64,000 nucleotides of DNA from Bradyrhizobium sp. Y36. GTDB lineage: Bacteria; Pseudomonadota; Alphaproteobacteria; Rhizobiales; Xanthobacteraceae. The position numbers and the translations under genes were made by a program. Below the pieces are notes generated by a model. It ran no database searches. It was not told the DNA's origin and worked only from the letters and a program-made list of their open reading frames with translations. Numbering within the stretch: the first letter of the stretch is position 1; each line of letters begins with the position of its first letter. The stretch covers positions 124,001 to 188,000 of the forward strand of contig NZ_NWTI01000015.1 of NCBI RefSeq assembly GCF_002531575.1, written 5' to 3'. Shown in pieces: positions 1,755 to 5,868 of this stretch.

Positions 1755-2501
1755 ATGGGATTGACTGCGACCAGGACGAGACCGGCAGCGCCGCGGCGCG
1801 AGGTGCAGAAATCGCGCGGCGGCCGGCCGACGAAATCCGCAGCCATCGAGCGCGACCAGCGGCTGATCGAGGTCGCCACCCGCCTGTTCCTGGATCGCGG
1901 TTTCGACGCCACCTCGCTCGACGCGGTGGCGGAAGCGGCGCGGGTCAGCAAGCCCACCGTCTATTCCCGCTACGGCGACAAGCGCGGCCTGTTCGCCGCC
2001 GTGCTCCGGCGCGAGATCGCGCGCTGGCTTGCGCCGCTCTCGGCGGCGGCGGAGACGCAACTCTCCAGTGCCTCGGACATCTCCGTCGAGCAGCGGCTGA
2101 TCGAGATCGGACGCGAGATGCTGACCTTCACCTGCGGTCCCGATGCCGTCGCCTTCAGCCGCATGATGACGTCGCAGGCCATCAACTTCCCCGACGTCGC
2201 CAAGCTCGGCAAGGAGGAAGGCTGGCTCAAGGCCGTCGCCACCACGGCACGCTTCTTCGACCGCCTGGTGGCGCAAGGCGCGCTCGACATCGAGGACACC
2301 ACCATCGCAGCGGAAGTGTTCCTCGACGTCGTCGTCGGTCACACCCACCGCCTGGCGACGTTCGGAACGGCACTCGAGATGAAGGCCGCGGAAAAGCGCA
2401 TGCGCACGGCCATCAAGCTGTTCCTCGCCGGTGCTCTGGGACCTGCCGATCGCGTCCAAAGCGCCGCCAAAGCCGCGCCACGCCGGCGCCCCGCCCGCTG
2501 A
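1755..2501 (+). CDS. TetR/AcrR family transcriptional regulator
   Basis: About 248 residues from ATG 1755. In-frame ATGs at 1719 and 1686 are alternatives, and no ribosome site settles the choice. After a basic N-terminal tail (KSRGGRPTK) comes a typical TetR HTH: ATRLFLDRGFDATSLDAVAE, then ARVSKPTVYSRYGDKRGLF as recognition helix. The C-terminal half is helical, of the AefR-like TetR_C type, and should bind an unknown small ligand. Two nearly identical palindromes flank the gene, over the promoters of the patatin lipoprotein and the PepSY protein, and a half-site lies just upstream of the gene itself. It is therefore probably the local repressor of all three. Confidence 0.88.
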   Translation: MGLTATRTRPAAPRREVQKSRGGRPTKSAAIERDQRLIEVATRLFLDRGFDATSLDAVAEAARVSKPTVYSRYGDKRGLFAAVLRREIARWLAPLSAAAETQLSSASDISVEQRLIEIGREMLTFTCGPDAVAFSRMMTSQAINFPDVAKLGKEEGWLKAVATTARFFDRLVAQGALDIEDTTIAAEVFLDVVVGHTHRLATFGTALEMKAAEKRMRTAIKLFLAGALGPADRVQSAAKAAPRRRPAR

Positions 2502-2550
2502 CAATTCCGTGAGATGCCCGCTTTCCCCGCGGGGGACGCCGCCGGCTCCA

Positions 2551-2581
2551 TTGACCGAAATAAAACGATACGGTATGGTTT
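2551..2581 (+). promoter_or_regulatory. promoter with overlapping TetR-type operator
   Basis: TTGACC (2551-2556) and TATGGT (2574-2579) are spaced by 17 bp and form the best promoter of this block. The 19-bp palindrome AAACGATACGGTATGGTTT (2563-2581) covers the spacer and the -10. It matches the operator at 344-362 at 15 of 19 positions and is more symmetrical. The next gene start is at 2755, leaving a leader of about 170 nt in which I see nothing else. Confidence 0.65.
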
Positions 2582-2754
2582 AGTTATAAGCGATACGGGC
2601 TGCCCTTTTTCACCAGCCCCAAAGGTGGCCCGTCCCGCTGAGATCGCCGCACCGGGTACAGCCCGGGGCGGCGCTCCGCGGCCGGCCGATGCCCAAGGCC
2701 GGCCGCGAATTCTTTACGATCATCCGGCACACTCGCTGGCCGAGGGTTTCGAGC

Positions 2755-3360
2755 ATGACGACAGCCAAACGATGGACCTCAGGACTGCTGGCAATCGCCT
2801 TGCCCGCGCTGCTCCTCGCGGCGCCCGCGCAGGCGATCGTGACCGCGGGCAGCACGCCGGCCGCCCTGCACAGCGAAACGGATGGTGACGCCGCGGCTGA
2901 CCGCCAGGCCGTCAGCCGCGAGATCGAACGCTTCCGCAGTTCGTCGATCTCGATCAGCCAGGCCATGGCAATTGCCGAAGGCCGGCACGCCGGCGCCACC
3001 ACGGCGGATGTGAGTTTTGACGGGGCCGCCGGCGTGCCGGTGTATCGGGTGAAGACCCTGCACAACGACCGGATCTGGCGCCACACCATCAATGCTGCGA
3101 CCGGCGAGTTCGTCGGCGGAGAGGCCGCCCTCCCCCTTGCCGAGCTCGATCACGAGGACCGCGACAACCTCGCAGCGCTCGGCGCGATCAGGCACCGCCT
3201 CGCCGACGCCGTCCAGGTCGCCGAACGCGCCGCCTCCGGCAAGGCGATCAGCGGTGGCCTCGTGCGCGAACGCGGCCGGCTCAATTTTGCGATCGTCGTG
3301 ATCAGCGGGGACGACCTCAAGGAGGTCATCCTGGAGCCGCCCGGCGCGCGGGCGAGATAG
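2755..3360 (+). CDS. secreted PepSY-domain protein
   Basis: 201 residues from ATG 2755, chosen because a clean signal peptide begins there (basic MTTAKRW, hydrophobic core, cleavage near APAQA). Two PepSY-like units follow. The first has the helix ISISQAMAIAEGRHAG and the strand VYRVKTLHNDRIWRHTINAA, ending TGEFVG. The second covers about residues 135-195 (HRLADAVQVAERAASGKAI and FAIVVISGDDLKEVIL). PepSY domains are found in periplasmic inhibitors and modulators of peptidases and in membrane redox proteins. Nothing enzymatic is visible. Its promoter carries the second operator, so it is probably co-regulated with the patatin lipoprotein. Confidence 0.8.
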   Translation: MTTAKRWTSGLLAIALPALLLAAPAQAIVTAGSTPAALHSETDGDAAADRQAVSREIERFRSSSISISQAMAIAEGRHAGATTADVSFDGAAGVPVYRVKTLHNDRIWRHTINAATGEFVGGEAALPLAELDHEDRDNLAALGAIRHRLADAVQVAERAASGKAISGGLVRERGRLNFAIVVISGDDLKEVILEPPGARAR

Positions 3361-3402
3361 CAACGGGACTCGGTCCCCGGCATTGACCGGGGCGAAAAGC
3401 CA

Positions 3403-3431
3403 TTGACGGCTGCCAGACTCTCCCGCATAAG
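3403..3431 (+). promoter_or_regulatory. promoter of the asd leader
   Basis: TTGACG (3403-3408) and CATAAG (3426-3431) have a 17-bp spacer. Transcription would begin at about 3437-3440, at or next to the leader-peptide ATG at 3440, so the mRNA would be leaderless or almost so. Known alphaproteobacterial attenuator peptides such as trpL of Sinorhizobium start in this way. Confidence 0.55.
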
Positions 3432-3439
3432 TCGCCGCC

Positions 3440-3511
3440 ATGTTCACGACCACCAAACGCACGACCAAAACCACCACGGCCCCAGGGGCCCGGGGAGGCG
3501 TGCGCGCGTAG
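3440..3511 (+). CDS. threonine-rich leader peptide of asd
   Basis: A 23-codon ORF reading MFTTTKRTTKTTTAPGARGG and ending VRA before TAG. Eight of its first 13 codons are Thr (ACG/ACC), with two Lys codons among them. It lies between a promoter (3403-3431) and an intrinsic terminator (3542-3573) upstream of asd, whose product leads to Thr, Met, Ile and Lys/DAP. This is the arrangement of a ribosome-mediated attenuator that senses charged tRNA-Thr. No ribosome site precedes the ATG, consistent with leaderless translation. The function is inferred from layout. Confidence 0.75.
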   Translation: MFTTTKRTTKTTTAPGARGGVRA

Positions 3512-3541
3512 GTCGTCGACTTAAACGCATCATCTCTACCG

Positions 3542-3573
3542 AAGCCCCGCCCTCGATGGTCCGGGGCTTTTTT
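3542..3573 (+). terminator. attenuator terminator upstream of asd
   Basis: An 8-bp stem AAGCCCCG/CGGGGCTT (3542-3549 with 3562-3569) has a 12-nt loop and a run of T (3568-3573). CGGGG at 3491-3495 in the leader can pair with CCCCG at 3545-3549, which would prevent the terminator. That same leader segment adjoins a GGCCC-CAG-GGGCC hairpin (3478-3490) that overlaps the end of the Thr codons. The 1:2, 2:3, 3:4 logic of an attenuator is therefore present. Confidence 0.8.
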
Positions 3574-3591
3574 GTTGTCTGAATCGCAACT

Positions 3592-3636
3592 GCATGATCC
3601 GGAAAAGTGGAATCCGGTTTTCCGATCAGATCATGC
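3592..3636 (+). repeat. 45-bp palindromic intergenic repeat
   Basis: The ends GCATGATC and GATCATGC are perfect inverted repeats around a GGAAAA...TTTTCC inner palindrome. From memory, palindromes of this kind (GCATGATCCGGAAAA at one end, TTTTCCG...GATCATGC at the other) are dispersed in Bradyrhizobium intergenic regions. It lies between the attenuator and the asd ribosome site and could fold in the asd 5' UTR. Confidence 0.75.
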
Positions 3637-3662
3637 TCAACTGAAACGGAATGGAGGACAAA

Positions 3663-4688
3663 GTGAGTAACGATCCCGTCGTCGCGATTGTCGGCGTCAC
3701 CGGTGCGGTGGGCGCCGAATTCATCGCCACCATGGACAAGCGCGGCTTTCGCGTCGGCAAGCTCAAGGCGCTCGCCAGCGCCCGCTCGGCCGGCAAGACG
3801 GTATCGTTCCGCGGCCAGCCGGTCGTGATCGAGGAGCTGACCGAGCGTTCCTTCGAGGGCGTCGACATCGCCCTGTTCTCCGCCGGCGGCAGCATCTCGA
3901 AGAAGTACGCGCCGATCGCGGTCAAGTCGGGCGCGGTCGTGGTCGACAATTCCTCCGCCTTCCGCATGGACCCGAACGTGCCGCTGGTGATCCCCGAGAT
4001 CAACGCGAACCGCATCAGGGATCACAAGGGCATCATCGCCAATCCGAACTGCGCCGCGATCACCGCGCTGGTGCCGCTGTGGCCGATCCACCAGAAGAAC
4101 CGCATCAAGCGCGTGATCATCTCGACCTACCAGGCCGCGTCCGGCGCCGGCGCCGCCGCGATGGAGGAGCTGGTCGAATCCACCCGCGCCAATCTCAACG
4201 GGCAGGTCTATACGCCCAAGGTGATGCCGCACCCCTACGCCTTCAACCTCTTCAACCACAACACCGCTGTTGATCCCGAGACCGGCTACAACGACGAAGA
4301 GACCAAGGTCATCAAGGAGACCCGCAAGATCTTCGAGGACGAGAAGATCGCGATCGGCGTCACCTGCGTCCGCGTGCCGGTGCTGCGCGCGCATTGCGAG
4401 GCCATCACCTTCGAATGCGAGAAGCCGATTACCGAGGACCAGGTCCGCGCCATCATGGCGCAGGCGCCCGGCGTGAAGGTGGTCGACGACCGCGCCAGGA
4501 ACTACTTCCCGATGCCGATCGACGCCTCGGGCCAGGACGACGTGCTGGTCGGCCGCATCCGCAAGGACCTCAGCGATCCCTCGGGCCATTCGATCTCGAT
4601 GTTCGTGGCGGCCGATCAGCTGCTGAAGGGCGCGGCGCTGAACGCCGTGCAGATCGCCGAGCTGTTGCCGCAGCGGGTGATGGCGTAA
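3663..4688 (+). CDS. asd: aspartate-semialdehyde dehydrogenase
   Basis: 341 residues. I choose GTG 3663 because GGAGG at 3653-3657 is then ideally placed; the upstream ATG 3651 overlaps that site. It reduces aspartyl-phosphate to aspartate semialdehyde with NADPH, the branch point to Lys/DAP, Met, Thr and Ile. Visible are the nucleotide-binding start VAIVGVTGAVGAEF, the active-site Cys130 in IIANPNCAAITA, the segment TYQAASGAGAAAMEEL and the His-containing RVPVLRAHCEAI. It is preceded by a Thr-rich leader peptide and attenuator. No other amino-acid biosynthesis gene adjoins it. Confidence 0.97.
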   Translation: MSNDPVVAIVGVTGAVGAEFIATMDKRGFRVGKLKALASARSAGKTVSFRGQPVVIEELTERSFEGVDIALFSAGGSISKKYAPIAVKSGAVVVDNSSAFRMDPNVPLVIPEINANRIRDHKGIIANPNCAAITALVPLWPIHQKNRIKRVIISTYQAASGAGAAAMEELVESTRANLNGQVYTPKVMPHPYAFNLFNHNTAVDPETGYNDEETKVIKETRKIFEDEKIAIGVTCVRVPVLRAHCEAITFECEKPITEDQVRAIMAQAPGVKVVDDRARNYFPMPIDASGQDDVLVGRIRKDLSDPSGHSISMFVAADQLLKGAALNAVQIAELLPQRVMA

Positions 4689-4710
4689 CGGCGCAGCAAC
4701 GGGTGTCGGA

Positions 4711-4797
4711 GGGTGGGCAAAGGCGCGCAAGCGCCGTGCCCACCACTCTCACCCCTCATCAAGAAAGACGTGGGCACGCTTCGCTTTGCCCACCCTA
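4711..4797. repeat. inverted repeat of the GGTGGGCAAAG...CTTTGCCCACC type
   Basis: The left arm GGGTGGGCAAAG (4711-4722) is complementary to the right arm CTTTGCCCACCC near 4784-4795, with an inner hairpin GGCGC-GCAA-GCGCC (4722-4735). It fills the convergent gap between asd and queA, and its right end touches the queA stop codon. I recall this sequence as a common Bradyrhizobium intergenic repeat. It may act as a bidirectional transcription end. Confidence 0.7.
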
Positions 4798-5868
4798 CGG
4801 CACTGCCCGAAACAACAGGCACGCATCGCCATACGAATAGAAGCGATAGCCGTTCGCGATGGCGTGCGCATAGGCCTGCTTCATCGTATCGAGCCCCGAG
4901 AACGCCGACACCAGCATGAACAGCGTTGACTTCGGCAGATGGAAGTTCGTCATCAGGACATCCACCGCGCGGAAGCGATAGCCGGGGGTGATGAAGATCG
5001 AGGTCTCCGCGGTGAATGGCTCGATCGTGCCGTCTTCGCTCGCCGCGCTTTCCAGCAGACGCAATGACGTGGTGCCCACGGCGACGATGCGGCCGCCGTT
5101 CTTCCGCGCGCTGTTGAGCCGCTCGGCCGTCTCGGCCGAGATCGTGCCCCACTCGGCATGCATCTTGTGGCCGTCGGTGTCGTCCACCTTCACCGGCAGG
5201 AAGGTCCCTGCCCCGACATGCAGCGTGACGCGGTTGAGACCGACGCCGCGCGCGTGCAGCGCCTGCTCCAGCGCGGGCGTGAAATGCAGGCCCGCGGTCG
5301 GCGCGGCGACCGCGCCTTCGTTCGCGGCGAACATGGTCTGGTAGTCGGCGAGGTCCTGATCGTCCGGCGTGCGCTTGGACGCGATGTAGGGCGGCAGCGG
5401 CGGGCTGCCGAGATCGGCGATGGCCTGGTCGAGCGCCGGGCCATGGAACGAGAACGACAGCGTCACCTCGCCCTCGAAGCCCTTGGCTTCGACCTCGGCA
5501 TCGAGATGGCCGAGCAGGCAGACCTTGCCTTCATTGCCGAAGCGGATTCGATCGCCGGCGACGAGTTTCTTCGCGGGCTTCACCAGCGCCTGCCAGCGCG
5601 AGCCGTCGAGCCGCTTGATCAGCGTCGCCTCGATTCTGGGCTCGGTCTCGCGGCCGATGCGGCGGCCTTTCAATTGCGCTGCGATCACCTTGGTGTCGTT
5701 GACGACGAGCTGGTCGCCCGGCTTCAGCCATGACGGCAGCTCGGCGACGGTCTGGTCGCGCAAGCCTCCGTTCTCGACGACCAGCATCTTCGCGGAGTCG
5801 CGCGGGCTCGCCGGGCGCAACGCGATGCGCTCGGCGGGCAGATCGAAATCGAAGAGATCGGTGCGCAT
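4795..5868 (-). CDS. queA: S-adenosylmethionine:tRNA ribosyltransferase-isomerase
   Basis: 357 residues, a normal length. QueA transfers the ribosyl part of SAM to 7-aminomethyl-7-deazaguanosine in tRNA, giving epoxyqueuosine. Family motifs are [14 protein letters not shown] at the N-terminus, [10 protein letters not shown] in the middle, [10 protein letters not shown], and the C-terminal [19 protein letters not shown] with [17 protein letters not shown]. It is followed on the same strand by convergent asd rather than by tgt, which is at the left edge of the window. A 109-bp repeat separates it from the upstream cyclophilin gene. Confidence 0.97.

Follow-up and report, generated by a model that had tools for sequence, protein, structure and literature searches.

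In Escherichia coli, the thrABC genes are preceded by thrL, a leader with Thr and Ile codons and a ribosome-binding site. A 2004 study of proteobacterial attenuators by Vitreschak et al. is said to list threonine operons. In Sinorhizobium meliloti, the AUG of the trpL leader open reading frame (ORF) is the 5′ end of the transcript, an attenuator precedes trpE(G), and a Trp leader peptide is also given for B. japonicum, according to the consulted part of PMC7298713. S. meliloti further has the short ORF SEP5, with six Thr and three Lys codons, in the 5′ untranslated region of an "aspartate dehydrogenase" gene; its translation was demonstrated by Ribo-seq and Western blot, and the consulted sections of the article suggest that it is possibly a leader peptide (PMC10117765). 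In bacilli, His leader peptides precede hisS paralogues (PMC2965389, consulted in part). For B. japonicum, 192 transcription start points lie exactly at start codons, in a paper whose main text does not mention asd (PMC4842269). Here we analysed a stretch of 64,000 nucleotides of Bradyrhizobium sp. Y36 (contig NZ_NWTI01000015.1, positions 124,001–188,000, forward strand; hereafter the window), in which asd2, a second gene for aspartate-semialdehyde dehydrogenase, follows a short Thr- and Lys-rich ORF. From sequence comparison and ribosome modelling we conclude, with a probability of about 0.82, that this leader is a ribosome-mediated transcription attenuator of a dedicated second asd gene, responding to charged tRNA-Thr and tRNA-Lys.

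The asd2 leader and its conservation

The features of the locus, numbered from the first nucleotide of the window, are as follows.

3403–3408, plus strand: −35 box TTGACG, read in the window sequence
3426–3431, plus strand: −10 box CATAAG; transcription is predicted to begin at the ATG or immediately beside it (leaderless)
3440–3511, plus strand: leader ORF MFTTTKRTTKTTTAPGARGGVRA, 23 codons with 8 Thr and 2 Lys; codons 2–12 are the presumed stall zone
3478–3490, plus strand: hairpin 1 (segments 1:2), GGCCC/GGGCC, from folding and swap test (0 of 20000)
3485–3498, plus strand: segment 2, putative 5′ strand of the antiterminator, pairing with 3533–3548 in the fold of 3483–3562 and in the swap test
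3500–3531, plus strand: inner antiterminator stem 3500–3504/3526–3531 with apical hairpin 3509–3523, fitting the conserved GUGCG/CGCAU
3533–3548, plus strand: segment 3, putative 3′ strand of the antiterminator, overlapping the 5′ arm of the terminator (fold and swap test)
3542–3573, plus strand: predicted intrinsic terminator AAGCCCCG / CGGGGCTT with T-run, from folding, terminator scan and pairing
3653–3658, plus strand: Shine-Dalgarno sequence GGAGGA of asd2, read in the sequence
3663–4688, plus strand: asd2, second aspartate-semialdehyde dehydrogenase gene with GTG start, identified with family models

A preliminary description of this DNA had pointed to a promoter directly upstream of a 23-codon ORF with eight Thr codons among the first 13, and direct reading bears this out. 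TTGACG is followed by 17 nt, CATAAG, 8 nt and the ATG at 3440; Thr occupies codons 3, 4, 5, 8, 9, 11, 12 and 13, and Lys codons 6 and 10. The leader recurs with this promoter at all 110 Bradyrhizobium asd2 loci that were read (30 + 80, from overlapping sets). With L111–L122 the total comes to 122 leaders including duplicates between the collections, of which 104 are distinct and one was not parsed. The search pattern was loose (TTGAC or CTGAC, a spacer of 15–21 nt and 4–12 nt from ATAAG to the ATG), and within this freedom the spacer measured 17 nt in every one of the 121 parsed leaders, with 8 nt between the −10 box and the ATG in 115, 7 nt in five and 9 nt in one. The transcript is predicted to be leaderless, with its 5′ end at or beside the AUG. 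When 3340–3700 was scanned with strict sigma-70 criteria, no promoter was reported, since these demand a T at the end of the second hexamer and CATAAG has none there. The promoter pattern occurs at three sites in the whole genome of strain Y36, that of asd2 and two others.

Amino-acid constraint on the leader peptide is mild and confined to codons 2–12, where the ratio of nonsynonymous to synonymous polymorphism (pN/pS) is 0.72 in frame versus 1.21 and 1.05 in the other frames. Codons 13–23 are free of it (pN/pS 1.96), as expected if the tail of the ORF matters as RNA. Among Bradyrhizobium leaders, the Lys codons at positions 6 and 10 persist roughly as well as the Thr codons, and the Lys-Thr pair at codons 10 and 11 is nearly invariant. 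Together, Thr and Lys fill a mean of 9.2 of the 12 codons before the hairpin in this genus and 8.3 outside the order. Three leaders (L045, L090 and L103) carry in-frame indels of 3 nt.

The Thr codons and both stems, whose conservation in relatives the preliminary description had proposed as a check, are kept not only in Bradyrhizobium but also in other alphaproteobacterial orders, and both stems covary. A genome of another genus of the same family (G133, locus L122) has the asd2 leader MITTTQRATTKTPFRAEESARV. Outside the order, 39 asd2 loci were sampled, 30 of them contributed by one search with 49 matching genomes. A 12-codon stretch with at least six Thr/Lys, including at least three Thr, was found at 34 of the 39 and at none on the opposite strand; examples are MSPKTKATTKTKKPFRASVIARA (L240) and MTTRTTTTKTKTTKPDGAGRIARD (L287). 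At 27 loci a simple pattern also detected a U-tailed terminator. A covariance model built from 35 leaders gave strong matches (E<1e-30) in the own genome and, among the 106 same-genus genomes for which a match was listed, in 102; a further 151 genomes had no match and were unlisted, and same-genus genomes may be among them. A search of 2500–5000 with Rfam covariance models (E up to 1) gave no match in the leader, and sub-threshold matches at 3592–3636, within a repeat, and at 4711–4775.

The preliminary description named the controlled gene asd. The family assignment holds (TIGR01296 of NCBIfam, 407 bits at a cut-off of 324), but the gene is the second copy and not the standard asd, which lies at 1007–2041 of locus L141 (from contig C54) and is 46% identical. 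No short ORF with at least four Thr in 14 residues was found upstream of the standard gene of the same genome (L149). For asd2, the most likely start in the sequence is the GTG at 3663; the alternative ATG at 3651 overlaps the GGAGGA site and is missing in diverged relatives, e.g. L025, L027 and L029. Among the matches listed for 198 genomes of the family, asd2-like proteins of at least 83% identity occurred only in Bradyrhizobium and G133, and a search of the class found asd2-like genes at E <1e-100 in 10 of 142 genomes, the own genome included. Both asd types were present in 18 of 18 genomes checked. Two genomes (G546 and G560) contain second asd2 copies, each with its own leader (L259 and L260).

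A homoserine dehydrogenase gene was also located in the genome of strain Y36. Downstream of asd2, the window contains a queA-like gene (4795–5868, minus strand), and in G133 (L142, 254–3792) asd2, on the minus strand, lies between genes that we take to be queA-like and tgt-like. A palindrome of about 49 bp (3592–3640), scattered in many copies across the genus and giving a sub-threshold match to the Rfam family BASRCI27, stands between the leader and asd2. This repeat was considered and rejected as a part of the switch; it is scattered through the genus, precedes asd2 at four of 30 loci and is a remnant in L018.

Competing pairings and modelled ribosome positions

Of the RNA elements in the preliminary description, the 5-bp hairpin over the end of the Thr run and the 8-bp terminator stem with U-tract were both recovered. 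The terminator arms (3542–3549/3562–3569) form eight perfect pairs (−17.5 kcal/mol, z −2.8) before a T-run at 3568–3573. A scan of 3340–3700 predicted this one terminator, where shuffled sequences yield 0.4, and the GGGCTTT tail is present in 122 of 122 leaders. Hairpin 1 has a folding energy of −9.0 kcal/mol, with a z of only −1.2. For the antiterminator, the preliminary description had proposed CGGGG (3491–3495) with CCCCG (3545–3549). These letters are present, but that pair would not compete with hairpin 1 because it lies outside the hairpin, and the predicted fold of the freed nascent RNA uses 3485–3498 instead. Its core is GGGGC (3485–3489) with GCCCC (3544–3548), extended by 3491–3498 with 3533–3541. 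Segment 2 includes the 3′ arm of hairpin 1, and the antiterminator would therefore compete with this pause hairpin, in the manner of segment 2 in classical attenuators.

The pairings were assessed with a swap test, in which the real halves were compared with 20000 permutations among one representative per distinct segment 2 (21 in total); relatedness is ignored, so the test is optimistic. The antiterminator halves reached −17.4 kcal/mol with their own partners versus −15.7 kcal/mol when permuted, and none of the 20000 permutations was as good. In the subsets, 12 of 20000 were as good outside Bradyrhizobium (8 representatives) and 28 of 20000 for Bradyrhizobium with G133 (13 representatives). 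The corresponding values for hairpin 1 were −9.4 and −7.5 kcal/mol, again with 0 of 20000. Examples of covarying pairs are GGGCUUCGG/CCGAAGCCC, GGGGCUGGG/CCCAGCCCC and GGGCCUGG/CCAGGCCC. As judged from this comparison, two mutually exclusive pairings (1:2 and 2:3) share segment 2 and covary. L112 was dropped from all swap tests and ribosome models; L263, which failed to parse, and the L056 and L082 types, for which the wrong arm had been taken, were left out of the final swap test, the shuffles and the ribosome models.

Three other lines of structural evidence were set aside or weakened. RNAalifold and column-wise counts on alignment A2 were replaced by the swap test, the consensus having missed the helix because pairing registers shift by one nucleotide between lineages. 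Folding energy was dropped as evidence, since shuffled sequences pair nearly as well. In L008 and L027, segment 3 has CAG for AAG and segment 2 has UGG, a combination that gains pairs; as clean covariation this co-change is weakened by L019 and L063, which have CAG without the partner change.

Ribosome positions were modelled on the assumption that the footprint spans −18 to +12 relative to the A site. In the following pairs of values, the first refers to Bradyrhizobium with G133 (20 representatives) and the second to the other order (21 representatives). With the A site 5–12 codons before segment 2, the antiterminator formed in the model at 0.91–0.97, and with the A site four codons before it at 0.81 and 0.73. 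The values fell to 0.28 and 0.02 at three codons, 0.33 and 0.01 at two codons, and 0.06 and 0.00 at one codon, stayed at 0.00 until near the stop codon, and were 0.04 and 0.10 just before it. On the stop codon, the modelled ribosome allowed hairpin 1 to form at 0.52 and 0.18. Useful stalls must, by this position scan, lie at least four codons before segment 2; a stall on the last Thr/Lys codon before the hairpin, also considered, was rejected, giving little antiterminator (0.38 and 0.02). Codons 4–8 and 10–12 before segment 2 are mostly Thr or Lys, and the Lys-Thr pair at codons 10 and 11 of the ORF sits at the right distance in the model. The control codons thus appear to be placed so that a stalled ribosome would free segment 2.

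Proposed mechanism and rival explanations

By most of the comparative criteria available, the sequences indicate that the asd2 leader is a real and conserved ribosome-mediated attenuator. We infer the following course for initiation, ribosome stalling and termination, and for the way in which they depend on Thr and Lys. Transcription would start at or beside the AUG of the leader ORF, which lacks a ribosome-binding site. When Thr or Lys is short, the ribosome would stall within codons 2–12, its front edge covering the left arm of hairpin 1 while segment 2 stays free; segment 2 would then pair with segment 3, and RNA polymerase would read into asd2. When both amino acids are plentiful, the ribosome would proceed over segment 2 toward the stop codon and hairpin 1 could re-form behind it. 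Segment 3 would then be available to the terminator, and transcription would stop at the T-run, yielding an RNA of about 134 nt. The preliminary description had proposed attenuation by charged tRNA-Thr, perhaps also Lys. The comparison supports this and, with Lys codons persisting like those for Thr, suggests that both would be sensed.

Several observations weigh against this mechanism. Equilibrium folding does not give a clean termination default in the model, which we take as a limit of the method: without any ribosome, the antiterminator is predicted in 8 of 20 and 18 of 21 representatives (mean 0.42 and 0.78), and with the ribosome on the stop codon its arm still pairs at a mean of 0.27 and 0.40. 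In 17 of 20 and 21 of 21 representatives, Thr or Lys also occupies codon 3 before segment 2, where a stall yields little antiterminator; this mismatch of one codon is within the uncertainty of the assumed footprint. An earlier swap test, run on the Bradyrhizobium and G133 types, gave a weak result (p = 0.027). Folding by itself has no discriminating power, as shuffled segments pair with the arm at 0.79 versus 0.94 for the real ones, and the antiterminator fragment is no more stable than its shuffles (z −0.66). In the conservation data, the leader of L028 is down to three Thr in 23 codons, with Lys there still at three. One of the 104 distinct leaders, L112 (1348–1480), has lost one nucleotide behind the Thr run, which disrupts the frame. 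Only weak covariance-model matches were obtained in G483, G499, G516 and G520, and five of the 39 loci outside the order (L242, L244, L246, L248 and L266) lack a qualifying Thr/Lys stretch. The shifted frame of L112 runs into asd2 in frame, and the deletion could be a sequencing error.

The high antiterminator values without any ribosome also suit an explanation in which the leader is a general sensor of translation stress, where a ribosome delayed for any reason within the first 12 codons, whether by antibiotics or by various kinds of starvation, gives read-through and the Thr/Lys codons only tune the response. Every modelled stall 5–12 codons before segment 2 gives the antiterminator, and weaker matches of the same RNA model precede genes whose ends we presume to be DUF1127-like. 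According to the consulted part of PMC12218461, S. meliloti detects inhibited translation through an upstream ORF of a DUF1127 gene. Against a general sensor stand the density of Thr and Lys before the hairpin, in Bradyrhizobium and outside the order alike, and the position of Asd in the steps shared by Thr and Lys synthesis; we regard it as unlikely. Action in trans of the terminated leader RNA or its peptide, like that of rnTrpL and peTrpL of S. meliloti, is very unlikely. The predicted product would be a leaderless small mRNA such as rnTrpL (PMC7298713, consulted in part), but the last 11 codons are without amino-acid constraint and the conserved features fit a switch in cis; a role in trans alongside this switch may exist. 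Another alternative, in which the leader forms a separate small RNA ending at an ordinary terminator and asd2 is transcribed from a promoter of its own, is scarcely credible: the 89 nt that separate the T-run from asd2 in the window, part of them taken up by the repeat, would allow it, but a leader of this kind adjoins asd2 in more than one order, the two asd2 duplicates bring theirs along, and the two mutually exclusive pairings covary.

Related leaders and described systems

The standard asd is preceded by a different Thr/Lys leader in part of the order. We scanned 84 upstream regions of at least 300 nt (among them L149–L178 and L179–L218, except L204, which has 199 nt; no orientation was assigned to L129). 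Short ORFs containing six or more Thr within 14 residues were present in 38 of the 84 and in none on the opposite strand, and no other amino acid had a comparable sense excess in these regions. All 38 came from the 64 regions of other families of the order, against 0 of 20 in the family of the window. The Thr/Lys cluster lies at the 3′ end of the ORF, about 110 nt before asd. Translation control or Rho-dependent stopping seems likelier for these leaders than an intrinsic terminator, because a T5 tract precedes asd in only one of the 38 and CTCTC and GAGAG-type segments occur in 25. The asd2 leader differs from this type in not belonging to the standard asd and in having a U-tract terminator. 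SEP5 of S. meliloti (PMC10117765) is probably a member of the standard-asd type.

Twelve weaker matches of the covariance model were read, and include leaders before asd2 copies, dapA-like and thrS-like genes and genes with a DUF1127-like end. Leaders L251–L254 precede dapA-like genes (L251: TIGR00674, 208 bits at a cut-off of 206). Their tails are of the GCCCCG..CGGGG-T form and their ORFs end in ..ARAR, ..CAR or ..RAR, with no obvious sensed amino acid; L254 has no ATG at the start of the model match. In one Bradyrhizobium genome (G540), the Thr-rich leader MSMTTATTSSGGSSPGRMR (L261, 1028–1137) precedes a thrS-like gene (TIGR00418, 409 bits). L255–L258, e.g. MIKSSRTFNRNHMTRFGWAVGGVAR (L258), have a terminator and precede genes whose ends presumably carry the DUF1127-like motif. 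A possible, if speculative, extension is that a portable leaderless attenuator chassis (promoter, ORF, hairpin and terminator, often with an ..AR(A) end, and with exchangeable sensor codons) sits on extra asd2, dapA-like and thrS-like copies and makes them starvation-induced isoenzymes, with asd2 and its leader having moved between orders as a unit.

If the proposed mechanism is correct, a leaderless attenuator reads two amino acids, Thr and Lys, before an enzyme whose product feeds both. Such control would be kept on the second asd, the standard asd of the same genome being without one, and may explain why the 18 checked genomes keep two asd genes. The asd2 leader, together with the separate Thr/Lys leader on the standard asd of other Rhizobiales families, suggests the same control in two architectures, and the locus offers a system for studying ribosome-paced attenuation without a ribosome-binding site.

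Among described systems, thrL of E. coli shares with the asd2 leader a Thr-rich leader peptide, alternative hairpins, an intrinsic terminator and the aspartate-family pathway; the asd2 leader differs in combining Thr with Lys codons and in preceding asd2, not thrABC. The hisS paralogue leaders of bacilli are, by the part of the account consulted, likewise leader-peptide attenuators on extra gene copies, but belong to Firmicutes, serve a tRNA synthetase family and use His codons. Compared by description, trpL of S. meliloti, a related bacterium, has a leaderless-type leader ORF and an attenuator upstream of an amino-acid gene, and differs in its Trp codons and in preceding trpE(G). The preliminary description knew of no Thr attenuator on asd in this group; our literature search, with most subscription papers outside its reach, likewise found none described for Bradyrhizobium, but a Thr/Lys leader on an aspartate-pathway gene has already been suggested for Sinorhizobium in the consulted part of PMC10117765. 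That element, SEP5, resembles the asd2 leader as a Thr/Lys-rich short ORF upstream of an aspartate-pathway gene, whereas the asd2 leader is predicted to be leaderless, lies on a second asd and has an intrinsic terminator. Set beside these accounts, the putative asd2 attenuator is a variant of known attenuation.
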